DNA from: Syntrophomonadaceae bacterium
GTDB taxonomy: Bacteria > Bacillota > Syntrophomonadia > Syntrophomonadales > Syntrophomonadaceae
Assembly (NCBI GenBank): GCA_012718855.1
Contig: JAAYBS010000033.1
Span: 1 to 33,039 of the forward strand
Direction of reading: 5' to 3'
DNA length: 33,039 nt
In this document: positions 3,469 through 22,499 of the stretch, piece by piece
Position numbering within the stretch: the stretch's first letter is position 1
Layout: the number at the start of each line of letters is the position of its first letter
Translations under genes and position numbers: made by a program
Notes under the pieces: generated by a model
Told to the model about the DNA's origin: nothing
The model's input: the letters and a program-made list of their open reading frames with translations, nothing else
The model's database searches: none

Positions 3469-5388
3469 ATGCTGAGTAATTCTGAGTTTGATAACAACCA
3501 ACAAATATCGACCAGTTATGACATACTTTTTAATGCCATTGATGATTTTCTATTTGTTATTTCTGAAGACGGAAAAGTAATTGATATCAATTTATGTGTA
3601 TGCAGGGATATGGGTTATAGCCAGCAGGAATTAGTTGGCATAGACCTGTTTTTATTGCATCCCCCGGAAAGATATGATGAGGTATTGCAGATTTTTCAGG
3701 CTATGATTTCCGGTGAGCGCAATGATTGCAATCTGCCACTTTTTACGAAAGACGGAAGATATATACCGGTTGAAACCAGAGTAGTAAAAGGATTATGGCA
3801 GGGACAATCAGTATTTTTCGGAATTAGTAAAGATCTGACTCGTATAAAACGAGCTAACGAAAGGTTTTCCAAGGCCTTTAGTGTCAGTCCGGCTTTAATG
3901 GCTATCAGTAAAATTGACAGCGGTGAATACATAGATGTTAACACCTCCTTTCTAAACGCTCTGGGTTATATCCGTGAAGAGGTTATTGGCAGGACTTCTT
4001 CGGATTTGGGTATTTTCTCATCTGAATCCAGAGAATTACTTAAAGATGAATTAAATCGTAACGGCTATATACGCAATAAGGAAATGACCATATATTCAAA
4101 AGATGGCTGTCTAGTCTATGTTGTCGCGTCTGTAGATTATTTGGAATTATCCGGGCAAAACTATTTGTTAAGTGTATTACTGGACATTACCAGTATAAAG
4201 GAATCACAGTTGAAATTGAGCCGTACACGCAGTCAGCTGCAAGCCATTTTAGACAACCTGCCGTTTATGGCCTGGTTTAAAGACCCCCAGGGAAAATATA
4301 TTGAAGTGAATCGGGTATTTGAACTCAATGTAGAAATATCTGCAAAAGATATTATTGGAAAGACCGATCTGGATATCTGGCCACAGGACTTAGCCTTTTC
4401 CTTTATAAATGATGACCAGCAGGTAATGACCAGTGGAAAACAATTAAATATCGAAGAAATACTAATAATTAACGGAGTTGAGCGGTTGCATAGCACCTTT
4501 AAGACACCGGTGTTTAATGAACGGGGGGAAATAATCGGGACTACGGGAATCACCAGGGATATTACTGAACAGCGGGAATTGGAACATGACCTTCTGAAAC
4601 AGAAAAATTTTCTTAAATCGTTAATAGATGCGGCGCCGGATCTGATTTTTTATAAAGATACTAACAGCATATATTTAGGCTGTAATAGTGCTTTTGCCCA
4701 TAAAGCTATTGGTATACCCGAAGAGGAGATTATCGGCAGGACTGATTTTGATTTTATAAAAGACCCGGAACTGGCCGGATTTTTTATTCAGAAAGATCAG
4801 GAAATGTTGATGCTCAATGAGACTTGTATGAACGAGGAGACTATAACCCTGGCAGACGGATCGGTGATGGAGGCGGAGACGGTTAAAACTCCTTTTTATA
4901 ATGAGTATGGAGAAATAATGGGGTTAATTGGAATAACCCGTGATATTACTAAAAGAAAACATGCTCAGGAGCAGTTATTGTTAAAGGAAAAGATACGGAG
5001 CAGTATTTCTGCGGCTACTAATGAATTGTTGGTTAACAGCGATTTTTATGATGCCATTAACAAATGTCTGGCTTTACTGGGCGAGGCTACCGGAGTAGAC
5101 CGGGTGTATATCTTTGAGAATCATTATGAAGAAGGGCAGAGCTATACCAGTTATAAAGCGGAGTGGAACTCGGGGACTTATGAACCACAAATAGATAATC
5201 TGGAACTGCAGAATATCCCCTTTGAAGAGATCATGGACTTTCTAAGGCCTCTGATGGAAGGAAAGGCTATCAGAGGGCTGATTAAGGATTTTGGAGAGGG
5301 ACGGGATAAAGAGCTTTTGATTGAACAAGGAATAATGTCAATATTGGTATTGCCGATTTTGCGCATAGCTTCAACAATCAGGGTGTAG
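3469..5388 (+). pseudogene. Multi-PAS / GAF sensor protein, 3' truncated (output domain missing)
   Basis: Repeated PAS/PAC signatures ('GEIIGTTGITRDITEQRE', 'GEIMGLIGITRDITKRKH') then a GAF domain that stops being GAF-like after 'EQGIMSILVLPI'. The last residues are antisense Ku sequence. Confidence 0.8.
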
Positions 5389-5750
5389 GCTTTATCACCG
5401 CCCGAAGAAGGTTCCAGGTAATAGCTTTTATCAAAATAAATCGGATCAACCTGCTCCAGTTTTACGAAATCCAGAATGTCAATAGTTTTGGTGTTTTCCT
5501 GCGGAATACGGGCTAAATCTTCTTCATTGATAACGATGTAACTGCCTTTTTGAAATTCATAACCTTTAACCAGTTCATCGGGTTTTATCTCTTTTTCACA
5601 TTTGGAGCAAACTTTTCTGTAATTGACCGGTGCCATACATTCCTAATGCAGATAATGAAATTTGAGGTCCTTGTTTTCGGTAGCCACATACATGCTTACC
5701 GGAATATTGACCAGGCCAAAACTTACGGCACCTTTCCACAGCGTTTTCAT
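5352..5750 (-). pseudogene. ku: Ku-like DNA end-binding protein remnant (in-frame amber stop, truncated C-terminus)
   Basis: Minus strand from 5750 reads MKTLWKGAVSFGLVNIPVSMYVATENKDLKFHYLH*ECMAPVNYRKVCSKCEKEIKPDELVKGYEFQKGSYIVINEEDLARI... matching the Ku N-terminal half. TAG at 5645-5643. Homology stops around 5352-5365. Confidence 0.85.
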
Positions 5751-5881: not shown

Positions 5882-6904
5882 TTATGCACCACTACCAAAG
5901 CCACAGGCGGGATAATGACATTGAGGACAGTTGAGGCAAAGTCCGCCCATACCCAGACGGGCGATCATAGCACGGGTTATCTTTTCGCCAGTTAATATAG
6001 TAGGCATTATTAAATCAAAAATAGTTATTTTACTGTACATTACACAACCAGGCAACCCCAGAATCGGCAGATCTCCCATATAGGCGACCATTAGCATTGC
6101 ACCTGGCAGTACCGGTGCTCCATAAGTAATAATCTCTGCTCCAGTTGCTCTAACTGCAGCGGGAGTTAAATCATCAGGGTCTACCGACATTCCTCCGGTG
6201 ATTAATACCATTTCGGCCCCTTGATTTATTAATTCCAAAATAGAATGGGTTATTTGCTGAGGATCATCAGGTACAATAATTTGTTTTTGCAGGCTGCAGT
6301 TATATTTTTTTATTTTTTCCTCCAGCACTGGCCCGAATTTATCCTCAATATATCCTGAGAAAACCTCATTGCCGGTGGTTACGATACCAACTTTATAGGG
6401 GTTAAAGGGTTTGACTTCAATGACTTCATGTTGATGACACAGGGTTTCCACTCTTTCCAAATGTTGCTGTGGAAATACCAATGGTACTACACGAACACCG
6501 GCTACCACCTCACCCAGTTTAACCGGACGGCGGTGGTTACGGGTAGCTACTACCACTTCTTCTATCAAGTTTATTTCCATTAATAAATCTTCATTTATAA
6601 CACACATGCCATCGCTGGTAGCAATAAGATTAACTTTCCCCTCGCGTGGTTCGCTCATTGATAAGCCGTTGCCCATTATAGCTTTAGCCAGTCTGATGGC
6701 AGCATCGTCTTCATGAACCATACCTGCACCCAATTCCCAAACATAAATATGCTCTTTACCCAGTTTGAGTAACTCAGGAATATCTTCCGGGGTTATTATA
6801 TGCCCTTTCCTGAAGGCAGGGCCCTTGAATTCACCTGGTACAATTCTGGTTATATCGTGACACAAAACTGTTCCAACTGCATCTTCTACTCGGATGGTTT
6901 TCAT
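5882..6904 (-). CDS. Molybdopterin-binding protein (MoeA/MogA-like domain) with C-terminal Cys cluster
   Basis: 'VGIVTTGNEVFSGYIEDKFGPVLEEKI', 'LITGGMSVDPDDLTPAAVRATGA', 'LPILGLPGCVMYS'. C-terminus 'CLNCPQCHYPACGFG'. Confidence 0.88.
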   Translation of the reverse strand: MKTIRVEDAVGTVLCHDITRIVPGEFKGPAFRKGHIITPEDIPELLKLGKEHIYVWELGAGMVHEDDAAIRLAKAIMGNGLSMSEPREGKVNLIATSDGMCVINEDLLMEINLIEEVVVATRNHRRPVKLGEVVAGVRVVPLVFPQQHLERVETLCHQHEVIEVKPFNPYKVGIVTTGNEVFSGYIEDKFGPVLEEKIKKYNCSLQKQIIVPDDPQQITHSILELINQGAEMVLITGGMSVDPDDLTPAAVRATGAEIITYGAPVLPGAMLMVAYMGDLPILGLPGCVMYSKITIFDLIMPTILTGEKITRAMIARLGMGGLCLNCPQCHYPACGFGSGA

Positions 6905-7188
6905 AATCCATAATTCCTTTCTGTGTTTTTGGATTTATTCAAAACCGTCTGCTCAATCCCCTAAATATGTTAACTAATTAAATTTGGGAGTACAAGTTAA
7001 ATAAACAAACGCTTGGTCAAAAAAGAACGGGAGGTAATTTTTTATATATTCGCCTGATTACATTTTAAATGTTAAACCAGTGGAAATGCTATTCCGTTTG
7101 CTGTAATTTTTACTGAATGCTATGATGAAATTGGAATAAGAATGCTAAAGATTAGAAGTTTATAGTTTAAATAAACGAGGTGTAGCTG

Positions 7189-7449
7189 ATGATAACGGAA
7201 GATTTAATCAAACGCATAAATGAATTGGCTGCCAGGAAGAAAACGGTGGGGCTTTCGGAAAAGGAGCTGGCTGAACAGAAAAAACTGTATAAAATTTATC
7301 TGGCCTCGGTTCGTAAACAGGTTATCACGCAGTTGGATGAGGCTGGTATCAGACCCGAAGGCCATGCTCATCATTGCTGTGATGACAATTGCAGTCATAA
7401 TCATCATCACCATCACGGACCAAATTGTAATCATGACAGGCATAAATAA
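7189..7449 (+). CDS. DUF896 (UPF0291/YnzC-like) protein with His/Cys-rich C-terminal extension
   Basis: N-terminal 'LIKRINELAARKKTVGLSEKELAEQKKLYKIYLASVRKQV' is DUF896-like. Tail is HAHHCCDDNCSHNHHHHHGPNCNHDRHK. Confidence 0.85.
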   Translation: MITEDLIKRINELAARKKTVGLSEKELAEQKKLYKIYLASVRKQVITQLDEAGIRPEGHAHHCCDDNCSHNHHHHHGPNCNHDRHK

Positions 7450-7487
7450 GCAATACAAAAGCTCTGTTACGGAGGTGAGCTGAAAAG

Positions 7488-7712
7488 ATGCGGGTTAAGG
7501 TTAAACTGTTTGCTACTTTTCGCAAGGGACGTTTCCGGGAAAGAGATATGGAGCTTAATGAAGACTGTACAGTAGGTTGGGTCATTGATCATCTGAGAAT
7601 CCCGCGCAAGGAATTGGGAGTTGTTTTTCTAAATGGCCTGGCTGCTAATGCTGATGAGGTCTTGAAGGAAGGAGATACCCTATCCATTTTTCCTATGGTT
7701 GGAGGTGGTTAA
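7488..7712 (+). CDS. MoaD/ThiS-family ubiquitin-like sulfur carrier
   Basis: 74 aa, beta-grasp-like 'VKVKLFATFRKGRF', C-terminal GGG. Confidence 0.88.
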   Translation: MRVKVKLFATFRKGRFRERDMELNEDCTVGWVIDHLRIPRKELGVVFLNGLAANADEVLKEGDTLSIFPMVGGG

Positions 7713-8526
7713 AATGACTGCTCATGACCCGCTTCAGGATGAATGGCAGGAAATACTGAATATTTCCAGAGAAAAAAGACTGTCTCCTCAGGAAATAGAA
7801 AAAGAGCGTTTGCGGAAAGGACTTATACCGCAGCGCTATGTACGCAATATAAAGGCCATAAGCCCGGAAGAACAGCTAAAGCTTATGGATGCACGTGTGG
7901 GAGTTTGTGGTTGCGGGGGTCTGGGGTTATATGTAATTAATCATCTGGCTCGCATGGGGGTTGGTCATATCAGTGTATGGGATCCGGATGTATTCAGTGA
8001 AAGCAATCTGAATCGGCAGTTGTTTTCCAGCTATGCTAATCTGGGTTTAAGCAAGGCGGAAGTATGTCGGGAGTATATTCAGGTGATTAACCCGGCTATT
8101 GCATTAGCGACATTTGCATCGCGCTGGCAGGATAGTGATCCGGAATTGTTTAAACAGCAGCAGGTAATGGTAGACGCACTGGATAATGTTTCTGCCCGCA
8201 TGGCTTTAGCCGAAGCGTGTGCTCAGGCGGCTATCCCTTTGGTCCATGGAGCAGTAGGTGGATGGTATGGTCATATTACCGTGATAATGCCCGGAGACAA
8301 TAGCTTGCATTATTTATATGGGGATACAAACCGGCAGGGAATCGAAAAGGAACAGGGGACTTTGTCTTTTACTGCAGCAACCATTGCCAGTATGCAGGCG
8401 GCAGAAGTAATTAAGCTGCTTCTACAGCGGGAATCAGATCTTCGCGATGAGATTTGCATGGTAGATTTATTGGATTTGAGCATCGAACGATTTCAGAAGT
8501 GTAACAGTGGTGTAACCCTAGTGTGA
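7699..8526 (+). CDS. ThiF/MoeB/HesA-family adenylyltransferase
   Basis: 'ARVGVCGCGGLGLYVINHLARMGVGHISVWDPDVFSESNLNRQLF' nucleotide-binding motif. A start near 7714 (MTAHDPL) is more likely than 7699. Confidence 0.9.
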   Translation: MEVVKMTAHDPLQDEWQEILNISREKRLSPQEIEKERLRKGLIPQRYVRNIKAISPEEQLKLMDARVGVCGCGGLGLYVINHLARMGVGHISVWDPDVFSESNLNRQLFSSYANLGLSKAEVCREYIQVINPAIALATFASRWQDSDPELFKQQQVMVDALDNVSARMALAEACAQAAIPLVHGAVGGWYGHITVIMPGDNSLHYLYGDTNRQGIEKEQGTLSFTAATIASMQAAEVIKLLLQRESDLRDEICMVDLLDLSIERFQKCNSGVTLV

Positions 8527-8559
8527 TTAGGGTGTTACAATTAAGACAGGTATGTGACA
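8500..8559 (+). promoter_or_regulatory. Candidate upstream activator array (TGTnACA half-sites)
   Basis: TGTAACA 8500-8506, TGTAACC 8511-8517, TGTTACA 8533-8539, TGTGACA 8553-8559. Matches the palindrome in front of the sigma-54 regulator gene. Confidence 0.6.
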
Positions 8560-8595
8560 ATATTGCGAACAAAGAATATATGATGTATATGCCAT

Positions 8596-8630
8596 AGGGT
8601 GCCGGAATTACAACTGGCACCCTTTTGTTA
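8596..8630 (+). terminator. Rho-independent terminator after the moaD-thiF pair
   Basis: GGGTGCC (8597-8603), 12-nt loop, GGCACCC (8616-8622), then TTTTGTT. Confidence 0.8.
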
Positions 8631-8647
8631 TGCTTTATCTCCGGAAA

Positions 8648-8663
8648 TGGCACGAAAATTGCT
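8648..8663 (+). promoter_or_regulatory. Sigma-54 (-24/-12) promoter of the AOR operon
   Basis: TGGCAC-GAAAA-TTGCT, an exact match to the consensus TGGCAC-N5-TTGCW, about 155 bp upstream of the first gene. Confidence 0.88.
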
Positions 8664-8818
8664 TGGTTTATTATTAGAGGGAATTGGAAGCGTTTAGTTA
8701 CTGACTGTTTAAGAATAATGACCAGGGTGGTTGGAAATTAATTGTTTTACATGCCCTCTAATTTAAGCAAAAGGAGAGTGAGAGCTGGTTTGCCCGTGCA
8801 GGGTGGAATCAGGAATGT

Positions 8819-9298
8819 ATGAGCAAAGTTCTTTTTGTTGAACCGGAAAAGTGTACCGGTTGTCGCAGTTGCGAACTGATTTGTTCGTTTGTCCATACCG
8901 AGGAGTTTAATCCCCTGCGTTCCCGTATCTCAATTGTCGCCTTTGAAAAGACTGGCTTTTCCTTCCCGGCGGTCTGCCAGCAGTGCAGTGTGGCGGCCTG
9001 TATGGAAGTATGTCCGGTAGGTGCCATTAGTGTTGACGCTGCTACCGGCGCCAAAATTGTTAATCATTCCACTTGTCTGCGCTGTAAAATGTGCACTATT
9101 GCCTGCCCATTTGGAGCAACTTTTTATGATGCCGATCATGATTTAATAATTAAGTGTGACCTTTGCGGAGGAGACCCGGAGTGTGTGAAATATTGCCCGT
9201 CAAATGCCATTTCCTATCGGGAAGCTAAAAGCGCCAATTTTAACAAACGCCGGGAAACAGCCCAAAAATTCCGTGAGGTTATGGAGGAGGGAAGATAA
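8819..9298 (+). CDS. Polyferredoxin-type 4Fe-4S electron-transfer subunit
   Basis: Multiple Cys motifs: [63 protein letters not shown]. Confidence 0.93.
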
Positions 9299-9300
9299 AT

Positions 9301-11100
9301 ATGTTTGCATGGATGGGTAATATACTACGAGTTAATCTTACTGCTGGAACTGTAGTTGCAGAACCTCTGAATAAAGAATACGCGGAGAAATTTATTGGTG
9401 CTCGTGGACTGGGTACTAAATATTTTGTGGAAGAAGTTGACGCCAGTGTAGACCCTTTGAGTCCTGAAAACAAAATAGTCTTCATGACCGGTCCGCTCAC
9501 CGGAACTTTTGCCGGTTCAGCCGGGCGTTACAATGTTGTTACCAAAGGGCCTTTAAATGGAACAATTGCAGCCTCCAATTCCGGCGGTACTTTTGGACCG
9601 GAACTTAAATATGCCGGCTGGGATGGAATTATTTTTGAAGGTCGTTCACCAAATCCGGTCTATCTCTGGATTCATAATAATGAAGTTAAACTTTGCCCTG
9701 CTGATGAACTGTGGGGTCAGGATGTTTATGCTGCTACCGATTTGCTTAAAGCAGCAACTGATGAGGAAGCCAAGGTAGCATGTATTGGACCGGCCGGAGA
9801 AAACCTGGTTAAGTTTGCCTGTATTATGAATGAATATCACCGGGCTGCCGGTCGTTCAGGGGTTGGAGCAGTTATGGGTTCCAAAAACCTCAAAGCGATT
9901 GTAGTTCGCGGGACAGGCAGTGTGATGGTGAAAGACCCGCAGGCATTTATTGAAGCGGCCAAAGATGCCCGCCGCAAGCTGCATGAACATCCGGTCACCG
10001 GAGAAGGTCTGGGGGCTTATGGAACTAATATTCTGGTCAATATTTTAAATGAACATGGTGGTTTGCCAGTCAAGAATTTCAGCGAAGCTGCAGTTTTTCC
10101 CAATGCTGAAAAAATATCCGGAGAATATCAGGCGGAAAAATATCTGGTAAGAAATAAAGGCTGTTTTGGCTGTTGTATTGGCTGCGGCCGCGTAACTGAT
10201 ATTCCTAAAGGACCCTTCAAGAGTGCTGGGGAAGGGCCCGAATACGAGGCTACCTGGACTTTTGGGTCAAATTTGAACATTGATGATTTTGAAGCTATTT
10301 GTAAGGCTAACTTCCTGTGTAATGAATTGGGCCTGGATCCAATCACTCTTGGTGGCACCATTGCCTGTGCTACTGAAATGATGGAAAAAGGAATTATACC
10401 TCGTACAGCAGCACCTTTGCGCTGGGGAGATGGAGCCGTACTGGTTGATATGGTAACCAAAACCGCCTACCGGGAGGGCTTTGGAGATGAATTGGCAGAA
10501 GGTTCCTATCGTCTGGCAGAAAAATATGGTTATCCGGAGTACTCCATGACTGCAAAGAAACAGGAAATGCCGGCATATGATCCGCGCGGGCAGCAGGGTA
10601 TAGGCCTGAATTATGCTACTTCCAATCGGGGGGGGTGTCATGTACGCGGATATATGACTTCACCGGAAGTTTTAGGAATACCCGAAAAAGTTGATCCGGA
10701 TGCCACTGAGGGTAAAGCAGCCCTGCTTAAAGCATTTCAGGATCTTACCGGACTGGTTGACTCAGCAGGTGTTTGCCTGTTTGTTACTTTTGCGATTGGC
10801 CTGCCGGAAATTGCTGCCCAGCTGAGAACCGCAACAGGACTTGATATTAGCGATGATGAGTATTACCAGGTTGGCGATCGTATCTGGAATCTGGAACGGT
10901 TATTTAATCTAAGGGCAGGTTTCAGCAAGCAGGACGATACCTTGCCGCCGCGCCTCCTGAATGAACCTATGAAGGATGGTCCACATAAGGGAAGAGTAGT
11001 GGAACTGGATGTGATGCTGCCCGAATATTACAGTTTGCGGGGTTGGGATGAAGAAGGTGTTCCCACACCTGAAAAATTACAGGAATTGGGATTGGCTTAA
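9301..11100 (+). CDS. Aldehyde:ferredoxin oxidoreductase family (tungsten-pterin) catalytic subunit
   Basis: 599 aa. '[16 protein letters not shown]', '[48 protein letters not shown]', '[20 protein letters not shown]', 'DSAGVC'. Confidence 0.95.
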
Positions 11101-11325
11101 AATATAAGCAGGCTTATGGTTAAGAGCGCCCGGTCCGGTCTTCGGTTGATATAAAAGCTTTACATTATAGACCGGTTAAACAGAAATACAGGAATAAATA
11201 GCTTTAGTTTCACGTATTTACCCGGTGCGTATCTTAACCAAAAGCCATCTGGCCATGAATCAGGAGAGGTTATTTAGAAAATAGGGGAATCCTTTGAGGT
11301 ATGTCCTCTGTTGGAGGCGAGAGTT

Positions 11326-11832
11326 ATGCAAATTGAAGCGCGGGAATATGAGTATGCCAATGATTACAAAGTTTTGATTGAAAGTTATTCCGGGAAGCCG
11401 GAGCATCTTCTGGCTATTATGCAGGATGTACAGAAGCATTATAATTACCTGCCTCGCCTGGCGATCAGCATGATTTCTCAGCATGTAGGCATTCCGGTTA
11501 GCCGGGTATATGCCATGGCTTCTTTTTATAAAGCTTTTAGCCTGGTACCCAAGGGTAAATTTATTTTTCGTGTTTGTGATGGTACCGCCTGTCATATCAA
11601 AAATTCGGCTACCCTGCTCGACCAGTTGCAGGAGCATCTGGGGATAGAAGTAGATGAAACTACTGCTGACGGACTGTTTTCAATTGAAACCGTAAATTGT
11701 CTGGGGGCTTGTGCCCTGGCACCGGTTATGGTGGTTAACGGCAAGGTATATGGGAAGGTCAGTCCCGGTGATGTGGAAAGAATTATTAATGAGTATGGGG
11801 GGCAGAGCTATGCAAGCCAGCATAAATGTTAA
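11326..11832 (+). CDS. NuoE-like [2Fe-2S] thioredoxin-fold subunit
   Basis: 'LPRLAISMISQHVGIPVSRVYAMASFYKAFSLVPKGKFIFRVCDGTACHIK' and 'NCLGACALAPVMVVNGKVYG'. ATG at 11326 preceded by GGAGGCGAG (ORF open from 11311). Confidence 0.93.
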   Translation: MQIEAREYEYANDYKVLIESYSGKPEHLLAIMQDVQKHYNYLPRLAISMISQHVGIPVSRVYAMASFYKAFSLVPKGKFIFRVCDGTACHIKNSATLLDQLQEHLGIEVDETTADGLFSIETVNCLGACALAPVMVVNGKVYGKVSPGDVERIINEYGGQSYASQHKC

Positions 11833-13642
11833 CAGCAATGACCGGCAGACTGTTCTGGTTTGCTGTGGAACCGGCTGTACCGCCAATGGCGGGCGTGAGG
11901 TATTTAAAACTTTTGAAACCCTGCTTAAGGATCATGCGGAAATTGAATTGCTGCCGGTCATAAAAGCAACCGGATGTAATGGTTGGTGTGAAAAAGGACC
12001 ACTGGTTAGATTATTGCCCCGGGATATTACCTATTGCAGTGTAGCCCCCGAGGATGTCAGTGAAATCATAGATAAAACTTTAATAGAAGGTATACTCATC
12101 AAACGTTTATTATACCGTGACCCGGTCAGCAAGGAGTATTTAAGTTCTCACCATCAAACCGATTTTTATCGTAAGCAGCATAAAATTGCCCTGCGTAATA
12201 TTGGTGAAATTGATCCTGGTCAAATTGATGATTACATTGAACGTGAAGGTTATCAGGCATTAAAGAAGGCACTGCAGGAAATGTCCGGTCAGGGTATTAT
12301 CAATATCGTGCAGGCTGCCGGCCTGAGAGGAAGGGGAGGGGGAGGTTTCCCCACCGGACGCAAATGGCAAGCCTGCAAGAATGCCAGTGGCGAAGAAAAG
12401 TTTATCATCTGTAATGGTGATGAAGGAGATCCCGGTGCTTTTATGGATCGAAGTATTTTAGAGGGGGATCCTCATACCATTATTGAAGGTATGATTCTGG
12501 GTGCTTATGCTGTGGGTGCTTCGCGTGGATATGTCTATGTACGCGATGAATATGATCTGGCGGTGCAAAACCTCGGACAGGCTATTAATGATGCCCGCCA
12601 ACGGGGTTATCTGGGCAATAGAATTCTAGGCAGTGATCTGACGTTTGATATAGAAATTGTAAGAGGCGGAGGGGCTTTTGTATGTGGTGAAGAAACTGCC
12701 CTGATAGCTTCTATTGAAGGCCGAACCGGGGAGCCTCATGATAAGTATGTATTTCCAACTGAAAAAGGCTTATGGGGGATGCCTACGGTAATTAATAATG
12801 TTGAAACCTGGGCTAATGTTCCCGTAATTGTGCTGCATGGTGCCGAACCTTTTGCCCGGATTGGTACAAAGAACAGCAAAGGCACCAAGGTTTTTTCTCT
12901 GGTTGGTAAAGTAGTTAATACCGGCCTGGTGGAAGTTCCCATGGGCACCACTCTGCGGGAAGTTATCTATGAGATAGGCGGTGGGTTGCTCAAAAAGCGC
13001 AGCTTTAAAGCCGTGCAAACGGGTGGACCTTCAGGCGGTTGTATTCCTGCCAGTCTGCTTGACCTGCCCATTGATTTTGACAGCCTGACTGAAGCGGGGT
13101 CAATGATGGGTTCCGGTGGTTTGATAGTAATGGATGACCATACCTGTATGGTGGAGGTAGCCCGCTACTATACAAACTTTCTGGCTGGAGAATCCTGTGG
13201 TAAATGTACTCCCTGCCGGGAAGGACTTCGTGCTCAGCTGGAAATTCTAAACCGTATCTGTGATGGAGAGGGTACAATAGAAGACCTGGATTTACTGGAA
13301 GATATTAGTGTTACTATGCAGGAAGCCTCTCTTTGTGCGCTGGGACGTACGGCTCCTAACCCGGTTTTATCGACACTGCGCTATTTCCGTGAAGAATATT
13401 TGACTCATATAGAAGAGCGTCGTTGTCCCGCCGGGGTTTGTCGTGCACTGACCACCTTCTATATTGACCCGGTTAAATGTACCGGCTGTCAAGTGTGTAA
13501 AAAGCATTGTTCAGTCAATGCCATTCAGGGTGAGAAGAAAGAAGTTCATGTCATTGATGAATCCATCTGTATTCGTTGTGGAGAGTGTTACCGGCAATGT
13601 GCTTTTGATGCCGTAAAGTTGCGTCAGGAGGAATTACGATGA
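11810..13642 (+). CDS. NuoF/HydB-like FMN/NADH-binding subunit with N-terminal thioredoxin-like and C-terminal 2[4Fe-4S] domains
   Basis: 'GLRGRGGGGFPTGRKWQACKNASGEEKFIICNGDEGDPGAFMDR', 'ESCGKCTPCREG', C-terminal 'CTGCQVCKKHCSVNAI' and 'CIRCGECYRQCAFDAV'. ATG at 11810 is in frame in ORF 11711-13642. Confidence 0.95.
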   Translation: MQASINVNSNDRQTVLVCCGTGCTANGGREVFKTFETLLKDHAEIELLPVIKATGCNGWCEKGPLVRLLPRDITYCSVAPEDVSEIIDKTLIEGILIKRLLYRDPVSKEYLSSHHQTDFYRKQHKIALRNIGEIDPGQIDDYIEREGYQALKKALQEMSGQGIINIVQAAGLRGRGGGGFPTGRKWQACKNASGEEKFIICNGDEGDPGAFMDRSILEGDPHTIIEGMILGAYAVGASRGYVYVRDEYDLAVQNLGQAINDARQRGYLGNRILGSDLTFDIEIVRGGGAFVCGEETALIASIEGRTGEPHDKYVFPTEKGLWGMPTVINNVETWANVPVIVLHGAEPFARIGTKNSKGTKVFSLVGKVVNTGLVEVPMGTTLREVIYEIGGGLLKKRSFKAVQTGGPSGGCIPASLLDLPIDFDSLTEAGSMMGSGGLIVMDDHTCMVEVARYYTNFLAGESCGKCTPCREGLRAQLEILNRICDGEGTIEDLDLLEDISVTMQEASLCALGRTAPNPVLSTLRYFREEYLTHIEERRCPAGVCRALTTFYIDPVKCTGCQVCKKHCSVNAIQGEKKEVHVIDESICIRCGECYRQCAFDAVKLRQEELR

Positions 13643-14379
13643 AGATTATGCTAAACGGACAGGAACGGGAAGCCCGGGAGGGAGAAACCATCCTCGAAAT
13701 GTGCAGGCGGGAAGGTATACCTATCCCAACCTTTTGTTATTATCAAGCCTTTGGCGGACAGGGTGCCTGTCGTATGTGTATGGTCGAACTTCGGGAAGAA
13801 GGTCAGGAACAAACGCGTCTGGTAGCCGCCTGCACCTATCCAATTAAGAGTTCGGTAGAGATTATTACTGAATCCGAACGAATACAGCGCTTACGGCGAA
13901 CAATTGTAATGTTATTGGCACGGCGGGCACCGGATAACCCTTTGATGGAAGCGCTTGCCCGCACTTATTCATCCCCCCGCCTGACAGCAATAGAAGTGGA
14001 ACCACCTAATTGTATCTTATGCGGGCTTTGTATTCATGCCTGTGAGGAAATGGGCAGGACTGCTATTTGGAGCATGTTTAGGGGGATTGATAAGCGAATA
14101 GGCACTCCCTACGATGAAGCCAGCGAAGATTGCATAGGTTGTGCTGCCTGTGCACGGATTTGCCCGACTCAGGCTATCAATCTGGAAGAAGAGGGCTCGA
14201 CCCGAAGAATTTGGAACAAGACTTTTGAGTTGGTTGCCTGTCAGCGCTGCGGCAAGAATTATACTACCCGTGAAGAACTCGAATATCTTTGGGAACGCAC
14301 CGAATATGGTAAGGAGAAACTATGTGAGTCCTGCCGTAAAAAAACATTGGCTATTAACATGAAATCCTTTCAGCAATAG
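13639..14379 (+). CDS. NuoG-N/HydA-N-like iron-sulfur subunit ([2Fe-2S] + 2[4Fe-4S], extra C-terminal CxxC pair)
   Basis: 'PTFCYYQAFGGQGACRMCMVEL', 'CILCGLCIHACEEMG', 'CIGCAACARICPTQAI', tail 'CQRCGKNY...CESCRKK'. 4-bp overlap with the NuoF-like gene. Confidence 0.9.
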   Translation: MKIMLNGQEREAREGETILEMCRREGIPIPTFCYYQAFGGQGACRMCMVELREEGQEQTRLVAACTYPIKSSVEIITESERIQRLRRTIVMLLARRAPDNPLMEALARTYSSPRLTAIEVEPPNCILCGLCIHACEEMGRTAIWSMFRGIDKRIGTPYDEASEDCIGCAACARICPTQAINLEEEGSTRRIWNKTFELVACQRCGKNYTTREELEYLWERTEYGKEKLCESCRKKTLAINMKSFQQ

Positions 14380-14401
14380 CAAGTTGCAAGGTTCAAAATA
14401 A

Positions 14402-14419
14402 TGTAACAGTTGTGTTACA
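14402..14419 (+). promoter_or_regulatory. Perfect TGTAACA-N4-TGTTACA palindrome upstream of the sigma-54 regulator
   Basis: TGTAACA GTTG TGTTACA. The half-site is shared with the array at 8500-8559. Confidence 0.7.
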
Positions 14420-14472
14420 CTTAAGGCAAAGGATTAGCTCTGATAATCCATTGCTGAAAGGAATGAGGGCCA

Positions 14473-16482
14473 GTGGGCAAGCTATTGCAATCAGACAATA
14501 CCCTGCATTTATGGGAGCAGTTTGTTGAAAGTGGGGAACTGGCAGCCGATAATATAAATCCAGTGGTAGCTGCTTCCTGGAAACGTTGTTATACCAGCGG
14601 GGTTGATCCTTATGATGGCAGGAGCCATTTAATATTAGATAAAAAAGAATTGCAGCAACTGCTTAAACAACGTGCTGAACTTATTAATATTGCTTTACCA
14701 CTAATGAAAGATTTGAATCGCTATGTTGCCGGTTCCGGATTCCTCGTTATGTTGACCGACGAACGGGGATTTATTTTAGAAGTACTGGGCGATCAGGATA
14801 TTCTAAGAAGTGCCCGGCAGATAAACTTTATTAAAGGAGCAGCCTGGACCGAGCAAGAGGTAGGTACTAACGCAATTGGTACCGTACTGCAGGAAAAAAT
14901 TCCGTTGCAGATAACCAGTTACGAACATTATTGTCAGTTGCATCATTCCTGGACCTGTTCGGCAGCACCTATTTTTAATGAACAGGAGCAAATGATTGGA
15001 GTTCTTAATGTATCCGGTCCTTGCGGGGAAACTCATCAACATACTTTAGGGATGGTAGTATCAGCAGTAGCAGCCATTATGTTTCAAATGCGCGTGCATG
15101 CCCGCAATCTGGAGTTGAATGTCATCAATGAACGCATGCGAAATGTTTTTATGAGCATGTCTGATGGGGTTATGGTATTAGGAAATGATGGCTGTATTGT
15201 ACAAATAAACCCGGTGGCGGAGCAGTTATTAGGCCGGAGCAGTCGGGATATAGAAGGCAAGCATTGCGAAACATTTTTCCCCGATTATATTAAGATTCAG
15301 GATCCCTTGCAGAAGGGAAAGGAATGGAATGATGTAGAAGCGCATCTACAGGGGGCCGGTGGAACGATTAACTGTATTGCTTCCTGCAAGCCTATCTGGG
15401 ACGAAAACGCCCGTGTAAATGGATCAATTCTTATTTTTAATCCTCTGAAAAAGATCAGCAATCTGGTAAACCGCCTGAGCGGAGCCCATGCCAGTTTTAC
15501 ATTTCAGGACATAATCGGGCAGAATCATAAATTACTGGAGGCTGTACAGACGGCAACTCTGGCGGCCGATAAACGCAGCAACATCCTGTTGCAGGGAGAA
15601 AGCGGTACCGGCAAAGAACTTTTTGCCCAGGCCATTCACAATGCCAGCCCTCGTAAACATGGGCCTTTTGTAGCTCTTAACTGTGGAGCCATTCCCCGTG
15701 AATTGCTGGGCAGTGAACTATTTGGCTATGTAGATGGTGCTTTTACCGGGGCCCGGCGGGGAGGCAGAACCGGCAAGTTTGAACTGGCCTCCGGGGGAAC
15801 TCTGTTTTTGGATGAAATAGGGGAGATGCCGTTGGGTAAACAGGTATCCCTGCTGCGAGCAGTACAGGAAAAAGAAATCAGCCGTATTGGTGATGATAAA
15901 GTAATTCCCGTTGATGTACGTATTATTTGTGCTACCAACAAAGATTTAAAGGCCGAGGTGGAAAAGGGTAATTTTCGTCAGGATCTCTATTATCGGTTGA
16001 ATGTTATCAAAATTAAACTGCCTTCTTTACGCGAACGGCGGGAGGACATACCCCTGCAATTTAACTATTTTCTGGAGCAGACCAGTGAAAAAATGGAGAT
16101 GCCGATGCCGCAGGTTGAACCGTCTGTACTGGATTATTTGTGTCGCTATGACTGGCCAGGCAATGTACGTGAACTGCAGAATGTAGTAGAAAGAATGATT
16201 AATATCAGTAATGGACAGGAAATCACCGTGCAGCACCTGCCCAATGAAATTCTGCAACAAGGTAATTCTAAAAATAATGAACCTGTACTGCTTCCCAGTT
16301 CCGGGGTAAGTGTAAGCGAACAGCGTGAACGGCAAAAACAGGACCGGGACCGATTTGAAAAGCAGGAAATTATAATGCTGCTGGATAAATATGGCGGCAA
16401 CATCAGCCGAATCGCGCAGGAAATGAACGTTTCCCGTAATACAATCTACCGCAAAATGAAGAGATATGAGATAAGGCTTTAA
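14473..16482 (+). CDS. Sigma-54-dependent transcriptional activator, GAF-PAS-AAA+-Fis HTH (AcoR-like architecture)
   Basis: GTG start. Walker A 'GESGTGKE', 'GAFTGARRGG' sigma-54 contact loop, 'GGTLFLDEIGEMP', Fis HTH 'GGNISRIAQEMNVSRNTIYRKMKRY'. Confidence 0.95.
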   Translation: MGKLLQSDNTLHLWEQFVESGELAADNINPVVAASWKRCYTSGVDPYDGRSHLILDKKELQQLLKQRAELINIALPLMKDLNRYVAGSGFLVMLTDERGFILEVLGDQDILRSARQINFIKGAAWTEQEVGTNAIGTVLQEKIPLQITSYEHYCQLHHSWTCSAAPIFNEQEQMIGVLNVSGPCGETHQHTLGMVVSAVAAIMFQMRVHARNLELNVINERMRNVFMSMSDGVMVLGNDGCIVQINPVAEQLLGRSSRDIEGKHCETFFPDYIKIQDPLQKGKEWNDVEAHLQGAGGTINCIASCKPIWDENARVNGSILIFNPLKKISNLVNRLSGAHASFTFQDIIGQNHKLLEAVQTATLAADKRSNILLQGESGTGKELFAQAIHNASPRKHGPFVALNCGAIPRELLGSELFGYVDGAFTGARRGGRTGKFELASGGTLFLDEIGEMPLGKQVSLLRAVQEKEISRIGDDKVIPVDVRIICATNKDLKAEVEKGNFRQDLYYRLNVIKIKLPSLRERREDIPLQFNYFLEQTSEKMEMPMPQVEPSVLDYLCRYDWPGNVRELQNVVERMINISNGQEITVQHLPNEILQQGNSKNNEPVLLPSSGVSVSEQRERQKQDRDRFEKQEIIMLLDKYGGNISRIAQEMNVSRNTIYRKMKRYEIRL

Positions 16483-16567
16483 GCGGGATGTTGTGCTATA
16501 TATTCCATTGACGGCTTTGCATAGTTAAGTATTAAAAATGAAGTTTTTACAGCGGAACAATTATACA

Positions 16568-16596
16568 CAAAAAAGAGTCAGGTATTTCCCTGACTC
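16568..16596 (-). terminator. Intrinsic terminator of the minus-strand MORN gene
   Basis: On the minus strand, GAGTCAGG-loop-CCTGACTC followed by TTTTTT. Confidence 0.8.
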
Positions 16597-16609
16597 TCGA
16601 TGATTAAAA

Positions 16610-16906
16610 CTATACGGGTTCATTATGTTTCCATTTTCCGCTGTGACCTTTGCTGCCATCCTTATAATAAACGGTACCCTCACCATGTCTTAAACCATTC
16701 AGGTATTCGCCTTCATAACGCAGTGTGCCATCAGGATAGTATTCTTTTCCATAGCCCTCCTGTTTGCCGTTAACCCAGTCCCCCTCGTACATCCCGCCAT
16801 TACGGAATATGGCTTTGCCTTTGCCGTTTGGCTTCCCCTCTTTAACATCACCGATATAATCTACCTTAACTGTGTAACGTAATTCCAGATCAACTATTTC
16901 TGCCAT
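16610..16906 (-). CDS. MORN-repeat protein
   Basis: 98 aa with about three MORN repeats: 'GKAIFRNGGMYEGDWVNGKQEGYGKEYYPDGTLRYEGEYLNGLRHGEGTVYYKDG'. Confidence 0.88.
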   Translation of the reverse strand: MAEIVDLELRYTVKVDYIGDVKEGKPNGKGKAIFRNGGMYEGDWVNGKQEGYGKEYYPDGTLRYEGEYLNGLRHGEGTVYYKDGSKGHSGKWKHNEPV

Positions 16907-17028
16907 TATAAGACCCCCCCTTCAGAAGATTAAGTCTGCCTAATTTAATAATAACATGCTGGCAATAATTTTGGAAAAGTATTCTATTAAAGTGCCAATA
17001 ATTACCTTTAAGCCAATGCCCAGTCTGC

Positions 17029-20922: not shown

Positions 20923-21669
20923 ATGTTTTCTCCTGAACCGACCAGTCTTAACAGTATGTTGGACCAGGTCTGGAAAGATTATCATAACGGGGATAAAGAA
21001 GCCCTGAATAATATATATGAACATTTGATGCCATTTTGCTTGCGGGTATCTTCCAAAACCTGCGGACGATATATTACTGATCATGATGAAGAGGCCAGCA
21101 TCGCCCGCCTGGCTATTTTAGAAGCTTTGGAAAAATATGACCCGGCTAAAGGCTCAGGTTTGGTTTTTCTTGGACAGACAATCAGAACCCGCATCATTGA
21201 CTATAAGCGTAAAGAAAAAAAACACAGCCTGCTGCCCATTACATTTCTTACCCGGAACGGTAGCAGTCTTACCGAGGAAGTTGATGATGGTTTTTTTGAG
21301 GAGATTTTAGATGATTTGGCCCGAAGCCAGGAAATTGAAAGATTAAAATATTTACTTGGAGATTTTAACATAGGTTTTGAAGAACTTGTCCAGGTTTCAC
21401 CCCGCCAGACCCGGAGCAGGCAAAACGCAAACCGTATTATAGATATAATTGTCGCCAATGATGAACTCAGCAATTATTTAATGGAGAAAAAAATGCTTCC
21501 TATGAAGGAGTTGGAAGAGACCTGGCAGGTAAACCGTAAGTTAGCTGACCGCTACCGAAAATACATAATAACTGCTGTAATTATACAATTAAACGATTTT
21601 CCGTATTTAAAAAGCTTTATTTTACCGCAAGCAAGGGGGGAACAAAAATGGCAAACAGAAAAGGCATAG
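20923..21669 (+). CDS. sigI: SigI-like RNA polymerase sigma factor
   Basis: 'FCLRVSSKTCGRYITDHDEEASIARLAILEALEKYDPAKGSGLVFLGQTIRTRIIDYKRKEKK' and a C-terminal basic HTH region. Followed directly by an RsgI-like ORF. Confidence 0.85.
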   Translation: MFSPEPTSLNSMLDQVWKDYHNGDKEALNNIYEHLMPFCLRVSSKTCGRYITDHDEEASIARLAILEALEKYDPAKGSGLVFLGQTIRTRIIDYKRKEKKHSLLPITFLTRNGSSLTEEVDDGFFEEILDDLARSQEIERLKYLLGDFNIGFEELVQVSPRQTRSRQNANRIIDIIVANDELSNYLMEKKMLPMKELEETWQVNRKLADRYRKYIITAVIIQLNDFPYLKSFILPQARGEQKWQTEKA

Positions 21670-22499
21670 TAATGGAGACGGGTAAAGGCTGGGCTATAAT
21701 TCTCACCGAGAATGGAGAATACCATAAAATAAAAACCAATGATTTTATGCAAGTTGGAGAACAATATCAGGAAAAATTTAGTTTGCCATTAAGCTATATA
21801 GCGGCGGCCGTTATTATTCTGGCATTGAGCCTGACTACCCTGGATTATTATTCGGTAAAAGCTTATGCTCAGGTTTCATCGCTGGCAGAACTGGGGGTAA
21901 ATCGCTGGGGAAGAGTAGTTTCAGTACAGGCAAAAAATGAAGCTGGTCAGCAGATATTGAATAAAGTTGAACTCAAAAATGATACGTTGGAAGTTGCGGT
22001 GGAAAAAATATATGCACATGACTTTAAGGATGAGCAGGATAACCAGTTACCGGTGTACAGACCAGAAATATCAGTTACCGGAGCCGATAAAAAAGAGACC
22101 AAGCTGGAAGAGAAAATGTTAAAAAAGATTAACCAGGGGTTAAAAAAGGCTGAGAAGGCCAGAAATAAAGCAGAAATCCAAGGCCTAAATGACTGTGACT
22201 ATTACGATGAAGAAGAACTTGATACCGAAAAAAAAGGTAAAGATAATAATGTCATATGGGAAGATGAAGAAATATGGGGAAATAATGATCTGGATATAGA
22301 TGATATAGATGATATAGATGATTTAGATTTTAATAAATTAAACGAAAAAATTCAGAATGAACAGGAAAAGCTGAAAGAACAAATTGAGAAAAAGCCCTAT
22401 TTCATTAATGAGGGACAAATGCTTCTGCCGCTGGAATCAAAACGGAATTTTAACAGCTATAAAAACAAATGGGATAAAGATGAGGATATAGATGACTGA
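21648..22499 (+). CDS. RsgI-like membrane anti-sigma factor with acidic, low-complexity extracytoplasmic tail
   Basis: N-terminal 'KGIVMETGKGWAIILTENGEYHKIK', one TM 'YIAAAVIILALSLTTLDYY', then 'AYAQVSSLAELGVNRWGRVVSV'. Overlaps sigI by 22 bp. Confidence 0.82.
   Translation: MANRKGIVMETGKGWAIILTENGEYHKIKTNDFMQVGEQYQEKFSLPLSYIAAAVIILALSLTTLDYYSVKAYAQVSSLAELGVNRWGRVVSVQAKNEAGQQILNKVELKNDTLEVAVEKIYAHDFKDEQDNQLPVYRPEISVTGADKKETKLEEKMLKKINQGLKKAEKARNKAEIQGLNDCDYYDEEELDTEKKGKDNNVIWEDEEIWGNNDLDIDDIDDIDDLDFNKLNEKIQNEQEKLKEQIEKKPYFINEGQMLLPLESKRNFNSYKNKWDKDEDIDD

Follow-up and report, generated by a model that had tools for sequence, protein, structure and literature searches.

We found that five genes in a 33,039-nucleotide stretch of a Syntrophomonadaceae genome form an operon that very probably encodes an electron-bifurcating tungsten oxidoreductase (WOR) of Class IV, type 1 (gene order SLCBA), probably driven by sigma-54 and carrying RNA structures ahead of worS and between worL and worC. 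The stretch, hereafter the window, is contig C3, positions 1-33039, of a metagenome-assembled genome of 2.09 Mb that is 82.7% complete. Judged from sequence, the enzyme is a further member of an already described kind, because the proteins are homologous to those of PDB 9mqx, the gene order is that of type 1 and none of the five B2 cluster ligands is missing. What merits further work is the regulatory RNA.

An earlier note on this DNA had described five co-directional genes behind an exact -24/-12 site, and all of them are present and intact on the forward strand (8819-14379, with the promoter at 8648-8663). worS (8819-9298) encodes a polyferredoxin subunit of 159 aa with 16 Cys in four groups, corresponding to four [4Fe-4S] clusters, and worL (9301-11100) encodes the predicted tungstopterin catalytic subunit of the aldehyde ferredoxin oxidoreductase (AOR) family, 599 aa long with AFOR_N and AFOR_C domains. 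worL is the sole AFOR_C gene found in the (incomplete) host genome. A structured intercistronic region (11101-11328, z -3.4) separates it from worC (11329-11832; ATG at 11329, with a TTG at 11311 possible), which encodes a NuoE/HydC-like [2Fe-2S] subunit. It is followed by worB (11810-13642, with 11810 as the best start), encoding a BfuB/HydB-type flavin mononucleotide (FMN) and NADH subunit of 610 aa, and by worA (13639-14379), encoding a NuoG-N-like subunit of 246 aa with clusters A1, A2 and A4 and a C-terminal Cys4 ribbon. The NuoEFG-like set named in the earlier note is therefore there, but WorB is not a plain NuoF, having an extra [2Fe-2S] and two [4Fe-4S] sites, and WorA lacks the His-Cys3 cluster. 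The two modules, said to be fused, are separate genes. The five-gene unit itself stands, although it proved to be wider, with worX and a thiF-type gene upstream and a sigma-54 activator gene downstream.

To place the enzyme, the five proteins were searched against PDB chains. 9mqx was the top match for WorL (9mqx_D, 7e-256), WorC (9mqx_C, 2e-43) and WorA (9mqx_A, 4e-53), and the second match for WorB (9mqx_B at 2e-226, after 7t2r_B at 4e-229) and WorS (9mqx_E at 5e-36, after 8c0z_C at 3e-44). Among solved structures, WorL lies nearest to 9mqx_D and then to PfAOR (clade 87), and it carries the motifs CFGCCIGC from residue 288 and DSAGVC from residue 487 as well as GPEYE and GGCH. The chains of 9mqx comprise three AOR subunits, three Fe-S subunits and one each of the NuoG-, NuoF- and NuoE-like subunits. 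We take this entry, whose database row names no organism, to be WOR1 of Acetomicrobium mobile, which PMC13328260 describes as a 'nanowire with bifurcating plug'. The five subunits are homologous to those of A. mobile WOR1 over nearly their full length and have the same B and A clusters; the gene order differs (SLCBA here, CBASL there), and at B2 position C476 WorB has Cys whereas 9mqx_B has Thr. Both orders have been described for Class IV WORs, SLCBA as type 1 (Eubacterium limosum) and CBASL as type 2 (A. mobile) (PMC13328260), and a larger Wor-Bfu group in Firmicutes was noted earlier (PMC9304861). The operon studied here has the published type 1 order and shows features of Class IV, namely a WorL with AFOR_N, AFOR_C and the motifs above, an adjoining four-cluster WorS and an adjacent WorABC module. 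E. limosum WOR1, likened to it by description, has the same published gene order and the same five-subunit set. The suggestion that the five-subunit set and its sigma-54 control would be new cannot be upheld, because the five-gene order had been published and sigma-54 control of aor had been predicted.

The evidence for bifurcation comes from the cluster ligands of WorB and WorA. The B2 cluster is held by C438, C476, H525, C531 and C536 (7t2r numbering), and non-bifurcating homologues lack B2-B5 (PMC9304861). WorB has Cys, Cys, His, Cys and Cys at these positions and thus all five ligands, and all ligands of B1, B5 and the ferredoxin domain are likewise present. It also has the architecture of a Type 2 BfuB: a thioredoxin-like [2Fe-2S] domain at the N-terminus and a pair of [4Fe-4S] sites at the C-terminus. 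The WorB proteins of relatives share the same ligands, except that V or T replaces C476 in a few and the first B5 Cys is altered in Synergistota. In contrast, four control NuoF homologues, one from the host genome (L114) and three from Syntrophomonas relatives (L110, L112 and L113), are without the five B2 ligands, with Asp at 438 and the C-terminal set missing. Clusters A1, A2 and A4 without A3 and A5 are the Type 2 Bfu pattern (PMC9304861), and a Cys map together with an alignment with 9mqx_A showed this pattern in WorA: neither Cys nor His occurs from residue 66 to 124, A3 is missing, and A1, A2 and A4 are present. The 9mqx homology and the cluster ligands strongly support, as the best reading, an AOR complex that bifurcates electrons and is linked to both NAD(H) and ferredoxin; the earlier note had proposed an NAD(H)-linked enzyme, possibly of this type.

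Several points weigh against this reading. A. mobile WOR1 is the only WOR shown to bifurcate, and the partly purified E. limosum WOR gave no demonstrable bifurcation (PMC13390469). Furthermore, the worL-worC gap (about 210-228 nt) could split the operon into two transcripts, and where PfAOR has its first D-x-x-G-L motif, WorL reads NELGLD; 9mqx_D likewise has N at this position.

While homology, gene order and cluster ligands were observed here directly, we infer the reaction, the metal and the assembly from A. mobile WOR1. WorL would oxidize an aldehyde to the acid at its tungstopterin site, and the electrons would pass through the WorS clusters to WorA (A1/A2/A4). From there they would reach WorBC, the core in which FMN and the B2 cluster would divide them between NAD+ and ferredoxin. 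The reaction could also run in the reverse direction. It is possible, though unlikely, that reversal is the physiological mode, with NADH and reduced ferredoxin jointly reducing carboxylic acids to aldehydes (confurcation) and so feeding alcohol formation. The Bfu reaction is reversible (PMC9304861), and the sigma-54/AorR-controlled aor of Clostridium serves alcohol synthesis (PMC6615313); however, aldehyde oxidation has been proposed for the Class IV enzymes with assigned roles (PMC13328260), and the window yielded no gene for an alcohol dehydrogenase.

An improbable alternative to the bifurcating complex is a non-bifurcating, NAD-linked AOR like AorABC (PMC10413684) of Aromatoleum aromaticum (Class III), in which the NuoEF part would only hand electrons to NAD+. 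AorABC resembles the present enzyme in its SL subunits, its four-cluster S subunit and its link to NAD, and WorS is nearest to 8c0z_C, the small subunit of a bacterial AOR. The NAD module of AorABC is AorC, a different flavin adenine dinucleotide (FAD)/NAD reductase that is not NuoEFG-like. Class III is not listed as bifurcating. In vitro, E. limosum WOR showed ferredoxin reduction only (PMC13390469), as this alternative would have it, but WorB has the full B2-B5 cluster set that non-bifurcating NuoF homologues lack. That the locus encodes two neighbouring enzymes, a stand-alone, ferredoxin-linked SL AOR and a CBA bifurcating module serving another partner, is highly improbable: SL without CBA is known in other phyla and in one Syntrophomonadales member (L064), and the structured worL-worC gap is the operon's sole long gap, but the five homologous chains form one particle in 9mqx, and SL and CBA lie side by side in two opposite orders in different phyla. 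A class II benzoyl-CoA reductase was considered as well, since the Geobacter enzyme (BamBC plus BamGHI) also joins an AOR-family catalytic subunit to a BfuABC-type module. It was rejected; the match of WorL to BamB is far weaker (6e-58), no BamDEF genes were recognised in the window, and WorS has four clusters whereas BamC has three (PMC13328260).

The distribution of the operon was determined in 61 genomes. An AOR relative was found at E 1e-50 in 42 of them, while full-length matches of at least 70% identity occurred only within Syntrophomonadales. The search for a conserved fdx-AOR-nuoE-nuoF-nuoG order, proposed in the earlier note, returned the complete S-L-C-B-A order in 19 Syntrophomonadales operons, counted among stretches that reach far enough after wider ones had been fetched. 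In a tree of 44 WorL proteins, built without reference clades such as clade 87, 27 SLCBA rows fell into one well-supported clade and six Synergistota CBASL rows into a separate one (86/69). Apart from these stood two SLCBA rows from other phyla or families, and most SL-only rows lay elsewhere. Many of the Syntrophomonadaceae examined would, on this evidence, be equipped for bifurcating aldehyde oxidation under a dedicated regulator. These bacteria live close to the thermodynamic limit, and their balance of NADH and ferredoxin is critical.

Sigma-54 control of the operon is well supported at the sequence level. The promoter TGGCACGAAAATTGCT (8648-8663) is the sole exact -24/-12 match in the window. 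Allowing at most one mismatch, the window has 4 matches where 1.4 are expected, so that the promoter is weak evidence when taken from the window alone; it becomes significant because it is conserved in related loci. Of 22 loci, 16 have an exact TGGCAY-N5-TTGCW in the 350 nt preceding worS, where the background rate in the remainder of the same loci predicts 0.08, and the promoter has one mismatch in L057, L058, L068 and L027. L027 and L003 are from sister genomes, 98% identical, and the -12 element of L027 is altered to TTGCG. Upstream of the promoter lies a candidate activating sequence (8500-8559) with five TGTnAY half-sites at 8500, 8511, 8522, 8533 and 8553, the first four at exact 11-bp steps; shuffled sequences held a mean of 0.33 half-sites, and none of 200 shuffles reached five. 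TGTnAC half-sites also cluster further upstream of the promoter in most relatives. RpoN is encoded in the host genome, and the gene directly downstream of worA (14473-16482), for a sigma-54 activator with GAF, PAS, AAA and Fis domains, is likely the operon's regulator, since most relatives have a homologue next to the operon, mostly downstream and in three upstream. Transcription would thus start at a dedicated sigma-54 promoter with the adjacent activator bound at the TGTnAC half-sites, as their conservation suggests, in agreement with the dedicated control noted earlier. The principle of a sigma-54-controlled aor was already known, because control of aor-moaD by sigma-54 and AorR, with TGT...ACA sites, was predicted for Clostridium in 2019 (PMC6615313). 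That regulon likewise has an AOR gene under sigma-54, a dedicated activator (likened by description) and sites of the TGT...ACA type, but it comprises aor-moaD only and no CBA module is named there. In one closed genome (G021:C1, locus L056), an insertion with a 442-aa transposase-like open reading frame lies 48 nt before worS and separates it from the promoter, which is itself intact at L056:3648; the insertion is absent from L054, which is 98-99% identical.

Between the strong Shine-Dalgarno sequence of worS (AAAAGGAG, 8769-8776) and its AUG lies an RNA hairpin (8785-8812, -12.3 kcal/mol). The linear spacing is 42 nt and falls to about 14 nt with the hairpin folded out. A hairpin occupies this position in every Syntrophomonadales locus with a readable leader, and an extended Shine-Dalgarno sequence, AAGGAGGTGA, precedes worS in many relatives. 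No hairpin of this type was seen in the Synergistota loci or in the SL-only loci of other phyla examined, nor did the Synergistota type 2 loci show the promoter layout of this operon. In an alignment of 24 sequences, 99.6% of cells were paired and 7 of 11 pairs had changed on both sides, counts that lean upwards because the sequences are related and the structure guided the model-fitted alignment. No shuffle attained these values, and slid partners, which share the same relatedness, were only 31-63% paired. A covariance model gave one match in the host genome, at worS, and matches at worS in ten relatives, besides three more weak matches (E 0.006-0.044); a scan of 209 kb of the host genome for the combination of Shine-Dalgarno sequence, hairpin and start returned worS and 10 weaker matches.

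The intervening stem, kept by compensatory change, is of the kind seen in the split ribosome-binding site of phage T4 gene 25. In T4 genes 25 and 38, a stem between the Shine-Dalgarno sequence and the AUG raises translation (PMC3014915), and the effective spacing in gene 25 is cut from 27 to 11 nt (PMC3014915), compared with 42 to about 14 nt here. The worS hairpin probably loops out the spacer in the same way, so that the distant Shine-Dalgarno sequence would serve the AUG. In contrast to the T4 genes, this is a bacterial operon with an unrelated sequence and a hairpin conserved across an order, and its effect is judged from the T4 case. To our knowledge, hairpin-bridged ribosome-binding sites are known chiefly from phage T4. 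A conserved one would be a clear bacterial case of such an arrangement; no covarying worS hairpin was found in the searchable literature. The hairpin could instead repress, its 3' arm covering a weak local Shine-Dalgarno sequence (CAGGA) until a signal opens it. We regard repression as rather unlikely: CAGG(A) and the 3' arm do overlap in many sequences, but several relatives (L054, L057 and L058) have no local CAGGA match, and nearly all sequences retain the strong distal AAGGAG(G). A leader peptide before worS was rejected, since its GTG frame occurs only in the window and the closest relatives, with an early stop (L064) or other frames elsewhere, and the GTG, read by eye, belongs to the extended Shine-Dalgarno sequence AAGGAGGTGA. 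In addition, a search of 7000-17000 for known riboswitches (for example that for molybdenum cofactor, Moco) upstream or in the worL-worC gap gave no Rfam match at E values up to 1.

Of 24 Syntrophomonadaceae operons, 18 have a strongly structured worL-worC gap (z below -2.5); the gaps of relatives differ in sequence and form different, yet often equally strong, hairpins. This structure may keep the output of C, B and A below that of S and L, and together with the worS hairpin it would suit the make-up of 9mqx, three SL to one ABC. More tentatively, and with some doubt, the two conserved RNA structures might act together across Syntrophomonadales to supply more S and L than A, B and C, the surplus required by a nanowire with one bifurcating plug. 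They provide a testable account of unequal subunit supply. By eye, L062, L063, L044 and L046 have a MoaD-like frame (worX) in the gap instead, whereas it lies upstream of worS in L057 and L058; its operon position thus varies among relatives.

In the window, worX (7488-7712, forward strand) encodes a ThiS/MoaD-like sulfur carrier of 74 aa with a C-terminal GGG (Pfam ThiS 2e-10; MoaD family 7e-7, under the curated cut-off) and has been called ThiS-like (PMC13328260). Its product probably functions in pterin-cofactor synthesis and not as a subunit. The next gene (7714-8526, forward strand) starts with an ATG directly after the worX stop and encodes a ThiF/MoeB-like, E1-like adenylyltransferase (Pfam ThiF 1e-51), the likely partner of WorX; a thiF-type gene is found upstream of worS in most relatives. 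These neighbours suggest a dedicated pterin supply only. Naming a tungstate-binding protein TupA through a PBP_like_2 search was dropped, the search being too general. The worX-thiF unit ends in a terminator-like hairpin (8596-8630, forward strand; 10-bp stem, TTTGTT tail) between the activating sites and the promoter, and such sites were no rarer in shuffles. Close to worX-thiF, a molybdopterin-binding domain protein with a Cys-rich C-terminus is encoded at 5882-6904 (reverse strand) and a DUF896 protein with a His/Cys-rich, perhaps metal-binding, tail at 7189-7449 (forward strand). Elsewhere in the window, a short Ku-domain open reading frame of 152 aa (5181-5636, reverse strand), possibly truncated, overlaps the end of a PAS-domain gene, and a sigma factor and RsgI-like anti-sigma pair (20923-22499, forward strand) lies beside the gene of an S-layer-domain protein.

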